From positions 1-36,483 of IMG/VR virus record IMGVR_UViG_3300020198_000938: 36,483 nt of DNA; one strand, written 5' to 3'. Positions 527-29,373 of this stretch are shown piece by piece; the stretch's first letter is position 1; every line of letters starts with the position of its first letter. Both the position numbers and the translations under genes were made by a program. The stretch is from a virus. Below the pieces are notes generated by a model, which was given only the letters and a program-made list of their open reading frames with translations, was not told where the DNA came from and did not search any database.

Positions 527-551
527 ACTACAAGAGCCGGTGAGATGTCAA
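523..551 (-). promoter_or_regulatory. Candidate sigma-70-like promoter for zinc-finger gene
   Basis: On the minus strand TTGACA (551-546) is followed 17 bases later by a weak -10 (GTAATG, or TAATGT with an 18-base spacer). An A/T-rich stretch, AAAAATAATTC, precedes the -35, like an UP element. The -35 and the A/T-rich part lie in the 29-bp repeat shared with the integrase promoter. Confidence 0.45.
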
Positions 552-575
552 GAATTATTTTTACCTGCGTTTACA
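547..575. repeat. 29-bp direct repeat, copy 1
   Basis: Seen directly: identical over 29 bases to 29196-29224, with further partial identity on both sides. Read on the minus strand it encodes the last residues and stop of the sigma-factor gene (VNAGKNNS), then the first five bases of a TTGAC -35 box. In both places the next minus-strand gene begins just downstream. Confidence 0.9.
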
Positions 576-1351
576 GGGACTTGCAGCGGATATTTCCTGA
601 TCTGAAAGTTCCGGCTCGGCCCGTGGAGATAGTACGGCGTGTAGGCCTTATCCAGCGCGCGCCTGTCGTCATAGGCCTGCCGATAGCTGCTATACGGCCC
701 GGACATGAACCGGAACTCGCTACCGCGCTGCTCGTATATCGCGCATGCGACGTGTCCCTCGAATTGACTGCGATGTCCGAGCGATACCCCGGGCTGATAT
801 GCGCGCAGGTTTTTCCGGAGCGACTGCGCGGCCTTCAGCCAGAGCCTGTACACCACGCCGCGGCCGACCCGCAACTCCTCTGCGACCTGCAGGATCGTCC
901 GCTCCTCTAGCGCCAAAGCGGAAACGACACGGCGCTGTACTTCCGGCAGCGTCATCAACGCGCGCTGCACGTCGCGCCTCAGGTCAACGGTAGCAAGCTC
1001 GCGATCTTCGCGGCCGAGAACGCTTGGCTGCTCCGGCTGCGCCAGATCCGCGACATGATCGTGCTCCGCGTCGTCGGCGACGAAGATGGCATCTAACGTC
1101 GAGATCGTGCGATTCCTGGTCACGTCCCGTCGGAACAGGTCGATCGCGTTGAACCTCACGGCCGTGGTCAGCCACGTCTTGACAGTTGCCGGCCCGTCTT
1201 CGTCGAAGTCCTCGCAGTCCTGGATGCACTCCACGATCGCGCCCTGCACGGCCTCGCGCGCACGATCAACGTCACGCGTCAGGCGCAGGGCCGTGTTAAC
1301 AAGGTAATCGTAGTTCGTCTTGATATGCTGCTCGAGATTCGCCTGCCTCAT
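548..1351 (-). CDS. Phage RNA polymerase sigma factor (ECF-like sigma-70 family)
   Basis: A 267-residue protein with sigma-70 region 2 at residues 13-80 (LVNTALRLTRD, then TAVRFNAIDLFRRD) and region 4 at about 125-183 (LPEVQRRVVSALALEE, then the helix-turn-helix VAEELRVGRGVVYRLW). Regions 1 and 3 are absent, as in ECF factors. Residues 185-267 form an extra Tyr/Arg-rich tail that I do not recognise. It would direct host RNA polymerase to phage promoters; the CGWGAA-N16-CGAGTAA elements are candidate targets. The start at 1351 is preferred over the GTG at 1357 because AAGG lies about ten bases upstream. It lies downstream of a small CxxC gene in one leftward operon. Confidence 0.85.
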   Translation of the reverse strand: MRQANLEQHIKTNYDYLVNTALRLTRDVDRAREAVQGAIVECIQDCEDFDEDGPATVKTWLTTAVRFNAIDLFRRDVTRNRTISTLDAIFVADDAEHDHVADLAQPEQPSVLGREDRELATVDLRRDVQRALMTLPEVQRRVVSALALEERTILQVAEELRVGRGVVYRLWLKAAQSLRKNLRAYQPGVSLGHRSQFEGHVACAIYEQRGSEFRFMSGPYSSYRQAYDDRRALDKAYTPYYLHGPSRNFQIRKYPLQVPVNAGKNNS

Positions 1352-1365
1352 GGTCACCGGCCTTT

Positions 1366-1602
1366 CTAGCGCGCCACGCGCTCTTTGAGTTCACGCTCAT
1401 GCGCCCTCTCTTTTCTCTTCTGCTCGAAAAACTCAGCCTTCTTTTTTTCTCGCTCTTCTGCCGCCCGACCAGGCCACGTCCCGTGCCTGCGACATCCGGC
1501 GTACTCCTCTGGCGTCTCCCTTGAGATCTCCGGCACCTCCACGCCGCAGATCCTGCAGCGCACGTAGCCCCGCGGCCCGTGTCGTTGTTGTTTCTTCGCC
1601 AT
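1366..1602 (-). CDS. Small CxxC protein, basic coiled tail
   Basis: A 78-residue protein. The N-terminal half has CRICG and then CRRHG (residues 16-39), a likely zinc ribbon or zinc knuckle. The C-terminal half is almost wholly Lys, Glu and Arg and is probably a helix. The start at 1602 follows GGGAGG; the longer reading would begin inside the operator. It is the first gene leftward of the divergent control region, with a TTGACA/TACAGT promoter overlapped by a GTAC operator, so it should be among the earliest leftward genes made. Function unknown; nucleic-acid binding is a guess from the fold. Confidence 0.7.
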   Translation of the reverse strand: MAKKQQRHGPRGYVRCRICGVEVPEISRETPEEYAGCRRHGTWPGRAAEEREKKKAEFFEQKRKERAHERELKERVAR

Positions 1603-1646: not shown

Positions 1647-1676
1647 ACTGTACCGTACTGTACATGCCATTGTCAA
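1647..1676 (-). promoter_or_regulatory. Sigma-70-like leftward promoter
   Basis: On the minus strand TTGACA (1676-1671), an 18-base spacer and TACAGT (1652-1647, four of six matches to TATAAT). The spacer contains most of the GTAC-triad operator, so a bound repressor would block RNA polymerase. Confidence 0.6.
1649..1664. promoter_or_regulatory. GTAC-triad operator, best copy
   Basis: Seen directly: TGTACCGTACTGTACA, three GTAC tetramers at five-base steps, with TGTAC/GTACA arms as a dyad. It overlaps the leftward promoter and lies about 145 bp upstream of the ribbon-helix-helix gene, whose product is a candidate ligand (inference). Confidence 0.7.
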
Positions 1677-1807: not shown

Positions 1808-2074
1808 ATGGTTAAGCGCAGGTACATCGGCGAACGTCGCCGCGATAATCCTGTCTCGGTGTACTTCAATCCAGACGTCATGCGAAAGCTCGTCAATTAC
1901 GTGGAGGACCACCCGCACATCGAATCCGTGAGCCGTCTCGTGGAGACGCTCACTGACATGGGCATCGATCGCCTGCGGCAGTACGCGGAAGCCGGCCGTG
2001 GGCTGCAGCGCGTGCTCGAGGCAGACCAGATTGGGCGGGATAAACAACGGGTTAGGCGCGTAAAAAGATCGTGA
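1808..2074 (+). CDS. Ribbon-helix-helix (Arc/CopG-like) DNA-binding protein
   Basis: An 88-residue basic protein. Residues 15-55 fit the ribbon-helix-helix pattern: a short strand (NPVSVYFN), a helix (VMRKLVNYVEDH), a turn and a second helix (ESVSRLVETLTDMG). This family binds short palindromic or tandem operators as dimers. The start at 1808 has GGAGGTG six bases upstream; the longer reading has no ribosome site and low-quality codons. It faces away from the leftward CxxC/sigma operon across a gap with a GTAC-triad operator, the usual position for an autoregulated phage repressor. That it binds those sites is inference. Confidence 0.75.
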   Translation: MVKRRYIGERRRDNPVSVYFNPDVMRKLVNYVEDHPHIESVSRLVETLTDMGIDRLRQYAEAGRGLQRVLEADQIGRDKQRVRRVKRS

Positions 2075-2456: not shown

Positions 2457-2498
2457 TTCCGGCAGCGCACTCCTCGGTGAGGGGTGGATAGGCCTGGG

Positions 2499-2548
2499 TC
2501 GCTCATGGAGCCTGGCCCTGTCGCTGGCTCGCGTCCATGACACAGCGA
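2499..2548. repeat. Nested inverted repeat (long hairpin)
   Basis: Seen directly: TCGCT-CATGGA-GCC on the left pairs with GGC-tcgcg-TCCATG-acac-AGCGA on the right, leaving a 13-base loop and small bulges. No T-run follows, so it is not a simple terminator. Confidence 0.5.
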
Positions 2549-2982
2549 GCAGCCTGCAGTCTCACTGCACTGCCGTGCCGTCTAGCATTTTAGGTCGTGC
2601 GTCGATTCGCCGCGACGGTTGTGGCGACGTTGCGCGATCAATTGTGTGACGACGGCTGATCTGCCCCCGCATGGTTTCGATCATGCAGCGCCCCTCGAGG
2701 ATCTCATGTACGATGATGCGCCTCGCGATGCACGACACGGATGCGTGGGCGTGCGTCATGAAAAGTACGAAGATTTATTTTTTTATGACCCGGCTGTAGC
2801 TCGGCCCGGAAGGGTTTGTGGACGGCGTGCAATCGCGGAGCGCGAGCCCGACATGGGTGCAGGAAGGTGAGTGCGAGCGATCGTCCACGCATTGTCAACC
2901 CAACGTCCAGACAATTGTCAAAGGCTGTTGACTGCCTTCCACTCCCATGCCATGGCCCCGTTATGACATGACATGACATGTT

Positions 2983-3034
2983 AAGAGAAGAGAATGAGAA
3001 GAATAAGAGAAGAATAAGAGAAGAGAAGAGAAGA
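2983..3034 (+). repeat. Purine-rich GAAGA/AAGAG tract
   Basis: About 52 bases of almost pure A and G (three T), made of imperfect AAGAG/GAAGA units, directly after three ATGAC repeats. Such strand-asymmetric tracts can ease unwinding or form triplex structures; its role here is unknown. Confidence 0.7.
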
Positions 3035-3079
3035 CATATCGCTGGTGCAACTTGCTAGCATGTTTTATTGCGGGTTTAG

Positions 3080-3097
3080 GTCGTGAATTCACACGAC
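3080..3097. promoter_or_regulatory. Dyad before the terminase small-subunit gene
   Basis: Seen directly: GTCGTG AATTCA CACGAC, six-base perfect arms, ending 14 bases before the ATG of the next gene. Candidate operator or mRNA hairpin controlling that start. Confidence 0.4.
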
Positions 3098-3110
3098 ACC
3101 GAAAGACTGT

Positions 3111-3800: not shown

Positions 3801-3816
3801 TGTACGGCACGGTACA
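3801..3816. promoter_or_regulatory. GTAC-triad operator before terL
   Basis: Seen directly: TGTACGGCACGGTACA, same arms and spacing as the site at 1649, with GCAC in place of the central GTAC. It lies 152 bp upstream of the terL start. Confidence 0.65.
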
Positions 3817-6160: not shown

Positions 6161-7827
6161 TGCCAGCCAAATCAGATCAGATCCACAAGCGCTACAAAAC
6201 CATGCGAGAGGCTCGTCGGAACTGGGACAACCTCTGGCAGGAGCAAGCCGACTACATCATGCCGAAGCGCTCGAACATTACGGTTCGCAGGGCTGACGGC
6301 GCGAAGCAGACCGAGAAGCTGTTTGACTCTACGGCGATCAAGGCGAACCGTGATCTCTCTGCGTTCATCTCCTCCGCGATGACGTCGCCGGTCGTGCGCT
6401 GGTTCTCGCTCAAGATGGCCGATCCGTTCCTGAATGAAATTCAAGACGTGCGCGAGTGGCTCGACGGGTGCGCGAACATTCTCTACGGACTGTTCCAGGC
6501 ATCGAATTTCAACACCGAGGTGCTCGAGTTCTACCAAGACCTCGGCGCATTCGGCACCGGCAACATGCTCTTCGAGGAAGCACCGCTCAAGCGCGGATGG
6601 TTCGGCGGATTCCAGTTCCGGTCGATTCCAGTCGGCTGCTACTGTATCTCCGAGAACGCCAGCGGCCGCGTCGACGTCTGCTATACATACCTTCCCATGA
6701 CGCTGGATGCAGCGGCTCGCGAGTGGGGCCTCAAGGCCTTGTCCGAGGACTCGCAGCGCAAGCACGAGAAGAATCCCTACGAGAACATAAATATCCTCCA
6801 TGCGGTCGAACCGCGTGAGGGCGTGCCTGGATACACTTCCGGCCGCAAGCCGTTCATGTCCTGCTATGTCGAGATCATCAACGATAACCGCACAAAAAAG
6901 ATCGAGGAGGGCGGGTTTGACGAGTTCCCGTTCATGGTCACGCGCTGGTCAAAGACGTCCGGCGAACAGTACGGACGCGGACCTGGCGACATTGCCCTGC
7001 CTGACATCAAGACGCTGAATAAAGCCGATGAGTTGACGCTCAAGGCCTGGCAGAAGGCGATCGATCCTCCGATGACCGCCCTGGACGATGGCATCGTCGG
7101 CCGTATCAGTTTCGTGCCGAGCGCGATCAATATCGTGCGCGAGAAAGACGCGCTGCAGCCGATCGGGTTCGGGCATAAATTCGAGGTGAACGCCGCGCTG
7201 ACCGAGCAGCGCCGGCAGAGCATTCGATCGATCTTCTTTTCCGATCAGCTACAGCTTCCCGACAAGACCATCATCACCGCCACCGAGGTGGAGCGCCGGC
7301 TCGAGTTAATGCGAGAGGTGCTCGGGCCGGCATTCGGCAGTCTCGAGTTTGACTTCCTCGGTCCTATGGTGGACCGCGCATTCGGCATCGCCTTCCGCAA
7401 CGGCAAGCTGCCGATGCCTCCCGCGCAGGTCTACGAAGCCGGCCAGAACGGCGGTCCCGTTGATATAGACGTCGAGTATGAAGGCCCACTCGCTCGCGCA
7501 CAGCGCTCGGGCGACGTGACGGCGATCAGCAAGACGATGTCCCTGGCTGCGTCTGTGGTGGGGGTGTCGAGGGACGCCTCGGCGCTGGACGTGCTGGACA
7601 CGGATGAGATGATTCGACACGGCGCAAACATCTCGGGCTTGCCGGCTAAGATGATACGGTCGAAAGATAAAGTGCAGGAGATCCGCGATACCCGCACGCA
7701 GGCGCAGATGGAGATGGTCGAGAAAAACAAGCTCGCCCAGGCTGCACAGACCACGAAAACAATCAGCGCTGCAACGAAGGATTTTGCGGCAGCGCAAGAA
7801 ATGGCCGGAGAGCCGGCAGGAGTGTAA
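6160..7827 (+). CDS. Portal (head-tail connector) protein
   Basis: A 555-residue protein of the T7 gp8-like podovirus connector family, which forms the dodecameric ring at the packaging vertex. Recognisable features are the N-terminal RARRNWDNLWQEQADYIMPKR-type segment (here REARRNWDNLWQEQADYIMP), TEKLFDSTAIKANRDLSAFI, the GTGNML-containing stretch near 130, and KTLNKADELTLKAWQKAIDPP around 285-305. The C-terminus is a Lys/Ala/Gln-rich helix (barrel). Its position after terminase and before the scaffold and capsid genes supports the call. ATG overlaps the upstream stop. Confidence 0.92.
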   Translation: MPAKSDQIHKRYKTMREARRNWDNLWQEQADYIMPKRSNITVRRADGAKQTEKLFDSTAIKANRDLSAFISSAMTSPVVRWFSLKMADPFLNEIQDVREWLDGCANILYGLFQASNFNTEVLEFYQDLGAFGTGNMLFEEAPLKRGWFGGFQFRSIPVGCYCISENASGRVDVCYTYLPMTLDAAAREWGLKALSEDSQRKHEKNPYENINILHAVEPREGVPGYTSGRKPFMSCYVEIINDNRTKKIEEGGFDEFPFMVTRWSKTSGEQYGRGPGDIALPDIKTLNKADELTLKAWQKAIDPPMTALDDGIVGRISFVPSAINIVREKDALQPIGFGHKFEVNAALTEQRRQSIRSIFFSDQLQLPDKTIITATEVERRLELMREVLGPAFGSLEFDFLGPMVDRAFGIAFRNGKLPMPPAQVYEAGQNGGPVDIDVEYEGPLARAQRSGDVTAISKTMSLAASVVGVSRDASALDVLDTDEMIRHGANISGLPAKMIRSKDKVQEIRDTRTQAQMEMVEKNKLAQAAQTTKTISAATKDFAAAQEMAGEPAGV

Positions 7828-11115: not shown

Positions 11116-11131
11116 TGTACGGTACGCTACG
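11116..11131. promoter_or_regulatory. GTAC-like site abutting tail tube B start
   Basis: TGTACGGTACGCTACG: 14 of 16 positions agree with the TGTACNGYACKGTACA pattern. It ends at the base before the ATG and occupies the place where a ribosome site would be; no clear Shine-Dalgarno sequence is present. Confidence 0.5.
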
Positions 11132-13285: not shown

Positions 13286-13839
13286 TGGCTGAGTCTGAAT
13301 CTTCACCAATGCAAATGGCGGCCGCTGCTCTTGCGGTTGCGTCTCTGGCCGGAACGGCGACAGCCGCAAAGGGCCAGATCGATGCCGGTAACGCACAGAG
13401 GGCTGCGGCGTACGAGAACGCCGTACTGCTTGAAGAGGATGCGAAGCAATCGAAGGTTTCCGTCGCCGATCGCATATCCGGATACGACCTGATTGCACGG
13501 CGCATGTACATGAAGCAGCGCGCGGGTGCCGCGAAATCCGGAGTCGACATGACCGGCAGTCCGCTTGACGTGATGCGCGAGTCGCTAGATCTCGCCGAGA
13601 AGGACGTCATGTCCATGTACCGTGCCGGCGAATACGAGTCGGCGCGCTACATGCGGTCAGCCGAGATTATGCGACGGACGGGCTCGACCGCGCAGGCGCA
13701 GTCTCGGTGGGCTGCGGCTGGCACGCTCATCGGCGGAATCGGCAACCTCGGGATAGCAGCGGCGTACGGGAGGTCAGGATTCGGGGTCGATCTCGGTAAC
13801 TTCTTAGGGTTGAGGAATGCCACCTCGTCAACTCCTTAG
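13285..13839 (+). CDS. Internal virion protein, gp14-like
   Basis: A 184-residue Ala-rich protein that resembles small internal core/ejection proteins of podoviruses: an N-terminal Ala-rich hydrophobic helix (residues 10-30), a coiled middle with DRISGYDLIARRMYMKQRAG, and a Gly-rich C-terminal helix (AGTLIGGIGNLGIAAAYG) that could insert in the host membrane. In T7 such proteins leave the capsid first and form part of the trans-envelope channel. Its last codons come from the first copy of a duplicated start region. Confidence 0.72.
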   Translation: MAESESSPMQMAAAALAVASLAGTATAAKGQIDAGNAQRAAAYENAVLLEEDAKQSKVSVADRISGYDLIARRMYMKQRAGAAKSGVDMTGSPLDVMRESLDLAEKDVMSMYRAGEYESARYMRSAEIMRRTGSTAQAQSRWAAAGTLIGGIGNLGIAAAYGRSGFGVDLGNFLGLRNATSSTP

Positions 13840-13850
13840 GGTTGAGGAAT
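13803..13850 (+). repeat. 16-bp direct repeat around a duplicated start region
   Basis: CTTAGGGTTGAGGAAT occurs at 13803-13818 and 13835-13850, 32 bases apart. Both are followed by a similar ATGCCAC segment; the second copy supplies the ribosome site of the next gene. Confidence 0.85.
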
Positions 13851-13851
13851 A

Positions 13852-15408
13852 ATGCCACGACTTGAACTACACAAGCGGGAAGTATTTGAGCCACCCGCAA
13901 CAGGACAGCCGCCGCAGCCGATCGACACCGGCATAGGTGCCGGCATGGTGCAGGCAGGCTTAAGTGCGAGCAACACGTTCGCGCGCGCCACACAGTTGTC
14001 CGTGCTCTTTTCCGAGCAAGAGCGCAAGCTTAAAGATTACATCGCAGGCGAAGAGTTGCAGCACGCCTTATCTCAGAATATACGCGATAAGTACAGTTCA
14101 ATGTACGACCGCATGCGGCAAGTCGGAACCGAAGGCGGGAACTGGGAAGAACAAGAAAAGGAAATAGAAAAGAATGCAGGTGAACAGCTCCGACCGTTCT
14201 TGGGTCGCCCGGCCGTCTACGCGGCAGGGCTGGCAGCAAAAAACAAGATAATTGAGGGGGAGCACCAATGGTTTAAGGAAAACCGCCGCAAGCAGTTTGT
14301 CGGCGAGAGCGCGTCTAGAATCAAGGCAATGGCCGACGAGAATAGAATTGAGGCTATCAGAATGCTGCGCGGCGGCGACCAGACCGGCTTCTACAAATAT
14401 CGAGAGCGGATCTTCGAACTATTAAATAACCAACTCGTCTTCACTCCGGATGATATTCGAAGTTTAACCCAAGAGTACGACCAGACGCTCCACCGTGGCG
14501 TAGCCGCGATGTTAGCCAACGAAGATCCAAAACGGTTTCTGAATATGCGGAATGAAGGCTTTTTCGACAGACTGCCAGGGCCGGTTGTCTCGGATTTTTC
14601 CAATATGGCAGATCTCGCCATGAGGCGCGAACGAGCGGAAAAGAAGGGAGAGGAGGAGGCCGTCTTGGCGGCGCAGGAGCGGCATCGGAGGGATGTGGCC
14701 AACGATTTTTATGTCAGGATCAGTCGTAGAGACCCAGGTCTTCGACAAGAGATCGAAGATAATTCCAAGTTGCTAGGCGACTACTACAAGCCAGTCAGGG
14801 ATTATTATGACCACATCCAGGAGCACGATGAAACCATCCGCGACAACCCGTCCGCTTTGATAGACGTGTACGATAAATGGCTTTCTGATCCGAATAGTAA
14901 AAAACTCATTCCTCTTGTTATGCGATACGCACTAGATGGCTATATCTCGACCCCTACGCTGAGGAGTTTTGTTGAGGCAATTGCTGGGCAGCAAAGGGCG
15001 GTCGAGACAAAGGCAGACCAAGATCGTCAAAATGACGTGTCAAGGGGGGCGGCACACCTGCGAGCGCTTTTCCTGCCACCGCCCGGAATAATGGGGAGAA
15101 TAACCAGCGGTACCCTCGGCCTCGCGCAGGCTGGGGCATTAAAAATGTACTACGAGCTTACCGTAAAAGACAAGAGGACCGACGTCTACAAGCTCGCCGA
15201 ACAGGCCCTTGGTGCTTTCTACGACGTGATAAAACCAGAGATCGAGGACACCTTCAGATCGGCAACACAAGCCTTCCCAATGAAAAGTATCGACGAGGCC
15301 CGGAACGCCTTCAACCGCGGAGATATCTCCCGCGATCGGTTTAATGCATTTGTCTGGCTCAAGAAACTAGAAGAGCGGCTCCACGGCCAAGGACAGGGTG
15401 GACAGTAA
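13852..15408 (+). CDS. Internal virion/ejection protein, gp15-like
   Basis: A 518-residue, mostly helical charged protein between the gp14-like and giant gp16-like proteins, the position of the T7 gp15 homologue. Long helices with frequent Glu/Arg (ERKLKDYIAGEELQHAL, ERAEKKGEEEAVLAAQERH) fit a tube-forming ejection protein. No enzymatic motif is visible. GAGGAAT before the ATG comes from the second copy of a 16-bp duplication. The gene has slightly lower GC and more AAA/ATA codons than its neighbours. Confidence 0.7.
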   Translation: MPRLELHKREVFEPPATGQPPQPIDTGIGAGMVQAGLSASNTFARATQLSVLFSEQERKLKDYIAGEELQHALSQNIRDKYSSMYDRMRQVGTEGGNWEEQEKEIEKNAGEQLRPFLGRPAVYAAGLAAKNKIIEGEHQWFKENRRKQFVGESASRIKAMADENRIEAIRMLRGGDQTGFYKYRERIFELLNNQLVFTPDDIRSLTQEYDQTLHRGVAAMLANEDPKRFLNMRNEGFFDRLPGPVVSDFSNMADLAMRRERAEKKGEEEAVLAAQERHRRDVANDFYVRISRRDPGLRQEIEDNSKLLGDYYKPVRDYYDHIQEHDETIRDNPSALIDVYDKWLSDPNSKKLIPLVMRYALDGYISTPTLRSFVEAIAGQQRAVETKADQDRQNDVSRGAAHLRALFLPPPGIMGRITSGTLGLAQAGALKMYYELTVKDKRTDVYKLAEQALGAFYDVIKPEIEDTFRSATQAFPMKSIDEARNAFNRGDISRDRFNAFVWLKKLEERLHGQGQGGQ

Positions 15409-20721: not shown

Positions 20722-20737
20722 TGTACTGCACGGTACA
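20722..20737. promoter_or_regulatory. GTAC-triad operator before tail fibre gene
   Basis: Seen directly: TGTACTGCACGGTACA, full match to the pattern of sites 1649 and 3801. It starts six bases after the giant-protein stop and lies 29 bases before the tail-fibre ATG. Confidence 0.65.
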
Positions 20738-20766: not shown

Positions 20767-22386
20767 ATGTCAATATCTACGACGTCAAACCGAAAGTCTT
20801 ACAACGGAAACGGCTCGACGCTGATCTTTGCGTACGACTTCCTGATCACCGACGAGACACATCTCAATGTGTACAAGGTCACGATTTCGACCGGCGCAAA
20901 GACGCTCCTGACGATCGCCACGGACTATACCGTGTCCGGCGTGGGCGATGGGTCCGGCGGAAACGTGACACTCACGGGCTCTGGATCGGGTGCTGCGCCG
21001 ACGACGCTCGAGCAATTGTTGATCGTGCGCGAGGTTCCGCTGACGCAGTTGGTCGACTATGTCGCCAACGATAAATTCCCAGCGAACACGCACGAGGGCG
21101 CGCTTGACAAGTTGACGATGGCCCTGCAGCAGCATGATGAGCTGATTGACCGATCGGTTAAGCTGCCGATCACATCAAGTCAGACCAATGTTGACTTCCC
21201 CGAAGGCACAAGCGCCAGCAATCGCTCCCAAAAGCATATTAGATGGGATTCAGCAGGTACAGCGCTCGAGCTTATCACGGTGCAGGACGTGCAGACAGCT
21301 ATCCAGACGAAGGGCGATCTCGTCCAGGGCGGAGATAGCGGTACAGCCGAGAAGCTGGCGGCTACTGCGCTCGGCGCGATACTGTACATTGCGTCAACCG
21401 TCAAGGCCGCGTGGCTTTCAGGAAACACGACTTCGACGAAGAAGTTCCTGACGCAAACAGGAGATGGTTCCGCCTCTGCCGCTCCGGCCTGGAATACGCT
21501 GGCCTCTTCAGACATTCCAGATTTAGGCGTTACAACAGCCAAGATTGATGCTTCCGCTGTTACGACAGCTAAAATCGCCGACACGAATGTTACGACAGCC
21601 AAGCTTGCCGATTCTAGCGTTACAACAGCTAAAATCGCCGATACGAATGTTACGACAGCCAAGCTTGCTGATTCTAGCGTTACGACAGCTAAAATCGCCG
21701 ATGCGAATGTTACGACTGCCAAGCTCGCTGATTCTAGCGTTACGACAGCTAAGGGTGGCACCGGCCAGAACTTATCCTCGACAGCACAAGGCAGCACACT
21801 CTACTTCTCGGGTACCGGGACGGTGGCTGCGCTCGCCCCCGGCACATCGGGGCAGTTCCTCAAGACACAGGGTGCGGGGGCTAACCCTGTGTGGGCTGAT
21901 GGTTCCGTGTCAACTGGGAGTATGATCCTGCGTACGACATCCGACGCCGAGGCCACGACCACGAGTAGCACCCAAACGACGCTCAAGACGCTTTCCAGTC
22001 TGAGCATCCCCATGACTTCCTCGGCGGTCTTGATCTTTTCCATTCGGAAAGCGGTCGGGGCGGCTGAATCCATGTCCGGGCGGCTGACCATCAATGGTTC
22101 TGTGGTTGGTACCAACCGTGGTTGGGCTGCCGGAAACAATGCCACAGGTGTCGGGCAAGTCGTCTTTATCATCGGCCCGCGAACAGCCAGCTATCTCCGC
22201 GGGCTGACGACTATCGTAGCGTCCTATGACGGGAGCAGTACTGAGTCCGTGTACTCTGCTGGTACGGATGCGGCTGATTTGCCCAATGCCACGATCACGA
22301 GCATTGGCATTCAAGCTGCCAACTCCGGCGGAACCGTGACAGTCGGCGTTGCGAACGTGAAACTATATGAGCTGCTTGGGGTTTAA
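20767..22386 (+). CDS. Tail fibre protein with decapeptide repeats
   Basis: A 539-residue host-recognition protein. The N-terminus (SYNGNGSTLIFAYDFLITDE through EQLLIVREVPLTQ) is the virion-attachment domain of T7 gp17-like fibres. Residues about 255-329 are seven and a half copies of a VTTAKIAD(S/T)N-type decapeptide, a trimeric beta-fibre shaft. A GGTGQNLSSTAQGSTLYF hinge follows, common in fibre proteins, then a beta-rich C-terminal tip ending VKLYELLGV. The ATG at 20767 is chosen because it begins the conserved domain; AAGG lies upstream. A GTAC-triad operator lies in the gap before it. Confidence 0.88.
   Translation: MSISTTSNRKSYNGNGSTLIFAYDFLITDETHLNVYKVTISTGAKTLLTIATDYTVSGVGDGSGGNVTLTGSGSGAAPTTLEQLLIVREVPLTQLVDYVANDKFPANTHEGALDKLTMALQQHDELIDRSVKLPITSSQTNVDFPEGTSASNRSQKHIRWDSAGTALELITVQDVQTAIQTKGDLVQGGDSGTAEKLAATALGAILYIASTVKAAWLSGNTTSTKKFLTQTGDGSASAAPAWNTLASSDIPDLGVTTAKIDASAVTTAKIADTNVTTAKLADSSVTTAKIADTNVTTAKLADSSVTTAKIADANVTTAKLADSSVTTAKGGTGQNLSSTAQGSTLYFSGTGTVAALAPGTSGQFLKTQGAGANPVWADGSVSTGSMILRTTSDAEATTTSSTQTTLKTLSSLSIPMTSSAVLIFSIRKAVGAAESMSGRLTINGSVVGTNRGWAAGNNATGVGQVVFIIGPRTASYLRGLTTIVASYDGSSTESVYSAGTDAADLPNATITSIGIQAANSGGTVTVGVANVKLYELLGV
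21529..21753 (+). repeat. 30-bp tandem repeats in tail fibre gene
   Basis: About seven and a half 30-bp units starting GTTACRACAGCYAA, alternating between KIADTN-type and KLADSS-type versions, giving a 60-bp higher-order period. They encode the fibre-shaft decapeptides. Confidence 0.9.
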
Positions 22387-26699: not shown

Positions 26700-27452
26700 T
26701 CACTTGCGAAGCGGCGTGCTGTACTGTGCATCACCGTAAAAAAATACCTTCCTGCTGCCCCGCACGAGGATTGGAATCTGCTGCAAGCAGAACAGCCCAT
26801 CATCAAACACGTCGACCACGCTGAACCCTTGCTGCCAGTCTGGATCGGCGCAGTATTCGATCTTATTCACGTCGCACAGGTGGCCGTTTTCGTAGGATGC
26901 ATACGGCCCGGTGATATTCGTGTGGAAGAACGAGCCCAGGCGATGCGTGTGTCCGGTCAGCGTCGAGCAGCCGTATTTTTGGAAGTGGCCCATCGCGGTC
27001 TGCGCGCTCCACTTCCGAACGATCGATCCATGCGTTACCAGCAGCTTGCCGAGCCAGATCTTCCCGCCGCACGGCGTCCACCGAAATCCATGGTCGGCCA
27101 GCCTGAAGACCTTCTCGAATTCCGTGATGCCCGTCTCGACCAGCGCCGGGGCCGAACGCCACAGATAACGACGCATACGGTCTTCATGGTTGCCGCAGAT
27201 CCAGTGCCGGTGCTTTTTGACTGCCCTGCCGAAGCGCTTCATCAGTTGGCCAGACTGGTCGATCTCGGCCTTGAGCCCCTCCTTGGTCAGCGGATTCTTA
27301 TCGAAGTCCGAGATCATGTAGCAGTCTGTGATGTCCCCGTTCAGCACCCCGCCCTCGGGCTTCAGGTCTTCAGCGAAGCAGAGCACCATGTCGAGCGCCT
27401 GCCGATCCTGAAACGGGATCTGAACATCGTTCAAAACAATATACCTCTCCAT
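26700..27452 (-). CDS. Calcineurin-like metallophosphoesterase
   Basis: A 250-residue protein with the family's motifs in order: LNDVQ (D9; Gln where His is usual), NGDITD (D40), GNHED (N88, H89), LVTHGS and TGHTHRLG. Two metal ions would be held by these residues. Phage members include 3'-5' nucleases, 2',3'-cyclic phosphodiesterases and protein phosphatases; the substrate cannot be read from sequence. The start at 27452 has GGAGG upstream. It is the first gene of a leftward operon directly downstream of bipartite element C. Confidence 0.83.
   Translation of the reverse strand: MERYIVLNDVQIPFQDRQALDMVLCFAEDLKPEGGVLNGDITDCYMISDFDKNPLTKEGLKAEIDQSGQLMKRFGRAVKKHRHWICGNHEDRMRRYLWRSAPALVETGITEFEKVFRLADHGFRWTPCGGKIWLGKLLVTHGSIVRKWSAQTAMGHFQKYGCSTLTGHTHRLGSFFHTNITGPYASYENGHLCDVNKIEYCADPDWQQGFSVVDVFDDGLFCLQQIPILVRGSRKVFFYGDAQYSTPLRK
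26715..26730. promoter_or_regulatory. Degenerate GTAC-type site
   Basis: GTGCT-GTACT-GTGCA at five-base steps within the 3' end of the metallophosphoesterase gene, 23 bases upstream of the lipoprotein start. Weaker than the other copies; it could be coding coincidence. Confidence 0.3.
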
Positions 27453-27478
27453 CGAGCCTCCATTGATAGCCCACATTG

Positions 27479-29171: not shown

Positions 29172-29200
29172 AGTCTACCAAAAGATAGGTGAGGCGTCAA
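29172..29200 (-). promoter_or_regulatory. Sigma-70-like integrase promoter
   Basis: Minus strand TTGACG (29200-29195), 17-base spacer, TAGACT (29177-29172; four of six). The A/T-rich 29-bp repeat forms the upstream part, like an UP element. Confidence 0.6.
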
Positions 29201-29224
29201 GAATTATTTTTACCTGCGTTTACA
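29196..29224. repeat. 29-bp direct repeat, copy 2
   Basis: Identical to 547-575. It encodes the last residues and stop of the excisionase-like gene (VNAGKNNS) and the start of the integrase promoter's -35 box. Confidence 0.9.
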
Positions 29225-29373
29225 TAGGCTTGCAGGTCTTCGGGCCGAACCCGCACGTACTTCGGCCCGACCTTCACGGACTTTATTTCTCCGCGCCTGG
29301 CCAGCTCGTACGCGTAGTTCACCGGCACGTTCAAGATCTTCGCCGTCTGCGGGATCGTCAGCAGTGTCTCCAC
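29197..29373 (-). CDS. Excisionase-like helix-turn-helix protein
   Basis: A 58-residue protein of the HTH_17/excisionase type: TIPQTAKILNVPVNYAYELARRGEIKS forms the helix-turn-helix (here split as TIPQTAKILNVP and YAYELARRGEIKS), then VKVGPKYVRVRPEDLQAYV as wing and end helix. GTG 29373 is chosen because GAGGAG lies eight bases upstream. Directly upstream of the integrase on the same strand, it is a natural candidate for the directionality factor, or a transcription regulator. Its last seven residues equal those of the sigma factor because of the 29-bp repeat. Confidence 0.78.
   Translation of the reverse strand: METLLTIPQTAKILNVPVNYAYELARRGEIKSVKVGPKYVRVRPEDLQAYVNAGKNNS

Follow-up and report, generated by a model that had tools for sequence, protein, structure and literature searches.

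A phage gene for a predicted ECF-type sigma factor with a putative orphan C-terminal domain, ending in a duplicated promoter module

Phage-encoded sigma factors have been surveyed by Schwartz and colleagues. In that survey, T4 gp55 and SPO1 gp28/gp34 are described as phage lytic sigma factors (PMC9429907). On the bacterial side, ECF41, ECF42, ECF238/CorE and ECF52 carry an extension directly after sigma4 that is presumably regulatory, and further SnoaL-bearing ECF groups have extensions of 120-150 aa according to a review (PMC8999054). Here we describe a phage gene for a predicted ECF-type sigma factor followed by an 84-residue tail.

The gene lies in an IMG/VR virus record of 36,483 bases, the whole of which was analysed and is called the window below. 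A second contig (IMGVR_UViG_3300020197_000372) carries, at 100% identity, window positions 6478-1, then 110 bases (6479-6588 of that contig), then window positions 36483-30003. Because the window ends are about 110 bases apart in this contig, the genome is circular or circularly permuted, about 36.6 kb long and nearly complete in the window. Among the gene families recognised are a T7-like head-tail adaptor and T7-like families for the portal, head, tail and tail fibre, together with a primase-helicase, a Cas4-type nuclease, a tyrosine-type integrase family and an excisionase-like gene. The original prediction had placed the gene in a temperate podovirus-type genome, and the adaptor, tail protein and tail-fibre families along with the integrase agree well with this. 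A search of the window for a T7-type RNA polymerase, in which T7 served as a working positive control, detected none, and neither tRNA genes nor Rfam matches were found.

On the minus strand, 26700-27476 resembles a calcineurin-like phosphoesterase just below the Pfam cut-off (E 4.8e-4). A tandem 27-nt repeat (13792-13850, 89% identical) ends just 5' of the gene starting at 13852, and six copies of a repeat with a 30-nt period are found within the tail-fibre gene (21499-21752). No gene is assigned to a 650-base stretch (2457-3110) that separates the switch from the late genes; it includes a polypurine run near 2984-3033 and probably houses a late promoter or a packaging signal.

The sigma gene, recognised from its ORF and from Pfam, PHROGs and NCBIfam matches, occupies 548-1351 on the minus strand and codes for 267 aa, with an ATG at 1351 and a TGA at 548-550. 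No strand had been named before, and on the plus strand the same register is broken by stops. Region 2 (residues 10-75; 1127-1324, minus strand, or 1124-1324 in the whole-record search) passes the Pfam cut-off for Sigma70_r2 (PF04542; E 1.7e-8, 34.5 bits vs 24). The region 4 HTH (residues 126-180; 812-976, minus strand) falls just under the cut-offs of both r4_2 (PF08281; E 7.7e-5, 22.7 bits vs 25.7) and r4 (PF04545; E 1.1e-4, 22.0 bits vs 24.1), and lies within the stretch aligned to SigW. Furthermore, residues 6-182 align to positions 3-165 of the 165 positions of NCBIfam TIGR02937 (sigma70-ECF; E 4.5e-19, 68.7 bits vs a cut-off of 42.9), and residues 2-184 match PHROG 1740, 'RNA polymerase sigma factor' (E 3.6e-15). 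When the core was compared with PDB chains by phmmer, Bacillus SigW (5wuq) came top, with residues 17-183 aligned (E 0.0016). Regions 2 and 4 are the only Pfam sigma models matching, which gives two domains and a linker without regions 1.1, 1.2 and 3. Together, these matches uphold the earlier reading of the gene as an ECF-type sigma factor, the profile similarity being well beyond chance in both TIGR02937 and PHROG 1740. On the strength of its sequence, we consider the gene a genuine, intact ECF-type sigma factor that is predicted to bind core polymerase.

We found no divergent homologue of this protein. In 50,697 phage records, tblastn gave no match for the whole protein at E 0.01; at E 10, the core alone matched nine records (best E 0.9) and the tail alone two, both with E 9. 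Against plasmids, the whole protein had weak bacterial ECF matches (best listed E 2e-4), none of which went past residue 200 among the 20 listed of 59, and the tail alone had two matches (E 2 and 8). Scans of IMG/VR with the whole protein, the tail and the core returned contigs of the same phage only; since an exact 8-residue match was required, these scans could miss distant relatives. The sole apparent relative among 143 genome-contig stretches was rejected, its match sitting on an apparent ABC-transporter permease ORF of Paenibacillus. Leaving the same phage out, we fetched 81 loci with the primase or portal in common, and a whole-record search of 50 of these records, mostly the longer ones although many are fragments, showed Sigma70_r2 in none. 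A phmmer search over the ORFs of 90 loci detected the sigma factor only in the phage's own copies. We also examined the complete genomes of four named phages with the portal or terminase in common; none had sigma region 2 or a T7-type RNA polymerase, which the T7 control did show. Genomes of this type had been said to carry a sigma factor only seldom, and within our sample this holds; for comparison, 86.6% of 4,350 phage genomes, all genome sizes being taken together, are without any sigma factor according to the survey (PMC9429907). Likewise, our search of the open-licence literature found no description of a phage ECF sigma factor with such an architecture.

Within a leftward operon the sigma gene takes second place, and the operon is preceded by a sigma70-like promoter (TTGACA - 18 - TACAGT; 1647-1676, minus strand) that matches the consensus at 10 of 12 positions; two sigma70-like sites were found in 1-2200, with 1.0 expected by chance. 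The first gene of the operon (1366-1602, minus strand, likely start 1602) ends 14 nt before the sigma gene and codes for a small, charged protein with a CxxC...CxxH pattern and no Pfam or PHROG family. The gene that follows the sigma gene is listed at 127-525, with a likely start at 480. A divergent small gene (1808-2074, plus strand), preceded by a promoter-like site at 1734-1763, has a ribbon-helix-helix look by eye and is a candidate repressor; it had no significant family in the libraries searched.

A 16-bp operator-like palindrome, TGTACCGTACTGTACA (1649-1664), overlaps the promoter of the sigma operon. With up to two mismatches allowed, the pattern TGTACnGyACnGTACA has 10 matches vs 0.19 expected, corresponding to five places read on both strands (514-529, 1649-1664, 3801-3816, 11116-11131 and 20722-20737). 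Besides the site at the sigma operon promoter, one palindrome (TGTACTGTACA, 514-524) comes after the first copy of the module described below, ahead of the next gene, and three are in the late region, where the one at 20722 lies within a GGGC...GCCC hairpin between two genes. A looser GTAC-rich site is found 3' of the second module copy. The five palindromes look like candidate operators of a lysogeny repressor, that is, of a regulon that would silence the sigma gene in the lysogen.

Two copies of a 48-bp promoter module, at 539-586 and 29188-29235 (both on the minus strand), are 90% identical (blastn E about 2e-11). The first codes for residues 256-267 and the stop of the sigma factor; the second lies where the excisionase-like gene ends and precedes the integrase gene. 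The two genes that carry the copies are otherwise unrelated. For a 19-base core, GGTAAAAATAATTCTTGAC, exactly two occurrences were counted, against 0 expected. The last 12 residues encoded by the module read LQVPVNAGKNNS in the sigma factor and LQAYVNAGKNNS in the excisionase-like protein; both copies encode ...VNAGKNNS and then TTGAC(A/G), and in both genes the stop TGA lies within a -35-like hexamer, TTGACA (546-551, overlapping the sigma stop codon) or TTGACG. Similarity between the copies extends downstream through the -10 region and the GTAC-rich palindrome, but not upstream, where it stops at codon 256; a score as high as that of this downstream similarity is reached by 0.35% of 30-base stretches drawn at random. 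The excisionase-like gene is the likelier source of the module because its Pfam HTH_17 match reaches residue 81, inside the module stretch. We conclude that the sigma gene probably received a copy of a promoter-operator module at its end, which rewrote its C-terminus, with a direction of copying that we infer. Such a duplicated module would offer a simple route for regulatory DNA to edit protein C-termini.

The extension after region 4 comprises residues 184-267. It had been taken as a single unit, and this part of the original prediction is not supported, since the last 12 residues belong to the duplicated module and about 55 residues of a putative domain are left; residue 255 is the last of the predicted domain, and codon 256 is the first of the module. 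The extension had also been called rich in both Tyr and Arg. Its Tyr content is indeed high (9/84, compared with 2.9% across the phage's remaining listed ORFs, P 8e-4), whereas Arg is not enriched (8/84 vs 7.8%, P 0.34). The tail has a net charge of +5 and one of the three Cys of the protein (42, 46 and 203). The maximum 19-residue mean hydropathy (0.75) is located in the core, and the tail has no membrane-like segment. Searched alone against Pfam, NCBIfam and PHROGs, the tail matched no family at E up to 10, in keeping with the earlier view that it is of no recognised nature and not with its being a common, characterised domain. In the fetched loci, a motif scan for tail-like small proteins gave the sigma factor itself as the only real-looking match. 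Paralogy between the tail and the excisionase-like protein was considered and rejected, the match being the common promoter module only.

AlphaFold2 applied to the tail alone predicts strands at residues 201-209, 212-220 and 248-255 and a helix at 223-237. Residues 201-255 (587-751, minus strand) would thus form a putative compact beta-beta-alpha-beta domain, a model of modest confidence: pLDDT is 71-74 in the best blocks (residues 204-233) with a mean of 57, and one of the five models is clearly better, the other four scoring about 40. The full-length protein, modelled without an alignment, had a mean pLDDT of 36.5, and fold searches were run on the tail model, with the full-length model left out. 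Against viral models (BFVD), Foldseek returned 786 matches at E <= 10 and none at E <= 0.001 (best E 0.02); the top ten are mostly uncharacterised phage proteins 57-100 residues long, and several of the top matches have a probability near 1.0. No solved fold stands out in the PDB (best Foldseek E 0.9, best VIA Z 4.1). An AP2-like integrase arm domain, SPOR and other small alpha/beta domains had no support from any tool, missing matches being no disproof. One BFVD neighbour is probably AH6C_032 of pAh6-C, assigned from its 55 residues. By eye its pattern is like that of the tail, with a shuffle fraction of 0.058, which is not significant; two other candidate small proteins gave 0.51 and 0.91. 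For AH6C_032, PHROGs gave nothing below E 0.04, and tblastn found relatives in a few Aeromonas phages only. At best, the tail belongs with small phage domains that form a diffuse class without an assigned function.

Considering all the above results, the best explanation, to which we would give an even chance, is that of a lytic sigma factor under repressor control that redirects the host RNA polymerase; its tail would serve for regulation or contact, and its last 12 residues would be a passenger. The gene would be transcribed early from the host-sigma70-type promoter, which a phage repressor would probably keep closed in the lysogen. Upon induction or infection, the sigma factor would bind the host core RNA polymerase and direct it to middle or late phage promoters, thereby replacing a phage RNA polymerase. 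Redirection of the host polymerase is the simplest proposal because the gene would be silent in the lysogen and early on induction, and no phage polymerase was detected. A palindrome of the same type is also found after each module copy, in front of the gene next to the sigma gene and in front of the integrase gene, and this too argues for a lytic sigma factor. On the other hand, late transcription does not need such a factor, since neither sigma region 2 nor a T7-type polymerase is present in the four phages related by portal or terminase. Further points against this explanation are the lack of a shared promoter motif (see below), a region 4 just short of the Pfam cut-offs and a tail model with a mean pLDDT of 57. 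The tail would most likely act in cis, in the way of non-canonical ECF extensions, tuning activity through contact with the polymerase, with sigma4 or with a small phage protein. The last 12 residues would be encoded by a copied promoter-operator module, whose role would be to drive the downstream neighbour of the sigma gene.

The tail may instead be an autoinhibitory sensor that keeps the sigma factor inactive until a ligand or partner binds, as has been proposed for the extensions of ECF41 or ECF42, and this would fit whether the targets are phage or host promoters. Its domain comes directly after sigma4, and C-terminal extensions of bacterial ECFs are commonly regulatory according to section 3.5 of PMC8999054. 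Nevertheless, a tail with no Pfam family, one Cys and no membrane-like hydrophobic segment fits no named extension type, and we regard autoinhibition as rather doubtful.

As for the targets, core lytic regulators usually sit in the leftward operon near the switch. The sigma gene belongs to a leftward operon adjoining the switch, behind an operator-overlapped promoter and not among accessory genes, which makes it unlikely that the sigma factor serves host promoters, in host takeover or a stress response, with phage genes using host sigma70 throughout. Some observations do point that way: the promoter-like sites near the switch are sigma70-like, the relatives manage without a sigma factor, and upstream of 20 gene starts we found no shared bipartite promoter motif above shuffles, bar the known module. 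Moreover, Bacillus phage sigma factors acting on host programmes are known (PMC9429907). Finally, it is improbable that the whole extension is a neutral by-product of a lost stop, after which the gene ran on into the duplicated module; the last 12 residues are clearly module sequence, but the second copy shows no similarity beyond codon 256, Tyr is abundant in the remainder of the tail, and residues 201-255 are predicted to be compact and resemble small phage proteins.

The most far-reaching reading, which we put forward tentatively and consider possible more than probable, is a new ECF architecture in which a captured domain of the small-phage-protein kind after sigma4 would act as a built-in switch for a partner or as a contact for the polymerase. 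On this reading, a duplicated promoter-operator cassette at gene 3' ends would also supply the last codons, carry the stop in its own -35 and place the downstream gene under the phage repressor.

Compared with bacterial ECF sigma factors (TIGR02937; SigW, 5wuq), the phage protein is alike in having region 2, a linker and a probable region 4 and no other region. It differs in being phage-borne and distant from solved ECFs, and in having an orphan tail and no recognised anti-sigma. With ECF41, ECF42, ECF238/CorE and ECF52 it shares the position of the extension, but at 84 aa the tail is shorter than the lengths given in the review (PMC8999054). It has no match to the SnoaL domain of the ECF41 type nor to TPRs, the ECF42 type having a TPR-rich extension of about 200 residues. 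The Cys-rich domain and linker CxC of the ECF238/CorE type are likewise absent, as is the transmembrane anti-sigma-like extension of the ECF52/53 type. The tail therefore belongs to none of the described ECF extension types tested and, if the proposal is true, would add an untyped class. Like T4 gp55 and SPO1 gp28/gp34, the protein is a phage-coded subunit that would redirect the host polymerase; unlike them, it is ECF-type and comes from a 36.6-kb temperate phage with T7-like virion genes. The small BFVD phage proteins of about 55-100 residues resemble the tail in predicted arrangement (Foldseek probability up to 1.00), but they are free-standing and their sequence similarity is not significant. 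If our preferred reading is true, a small temperate phage with T7-like virion genes uses an ECF sigma factor as its lytic regulator, while its four checked structural relatives have neither polymerase nor sigma. Altogether, the sigma factor is genuine, unusual but recognisable and carries an orphan domain, and the duplicated promoter module is a side finding.
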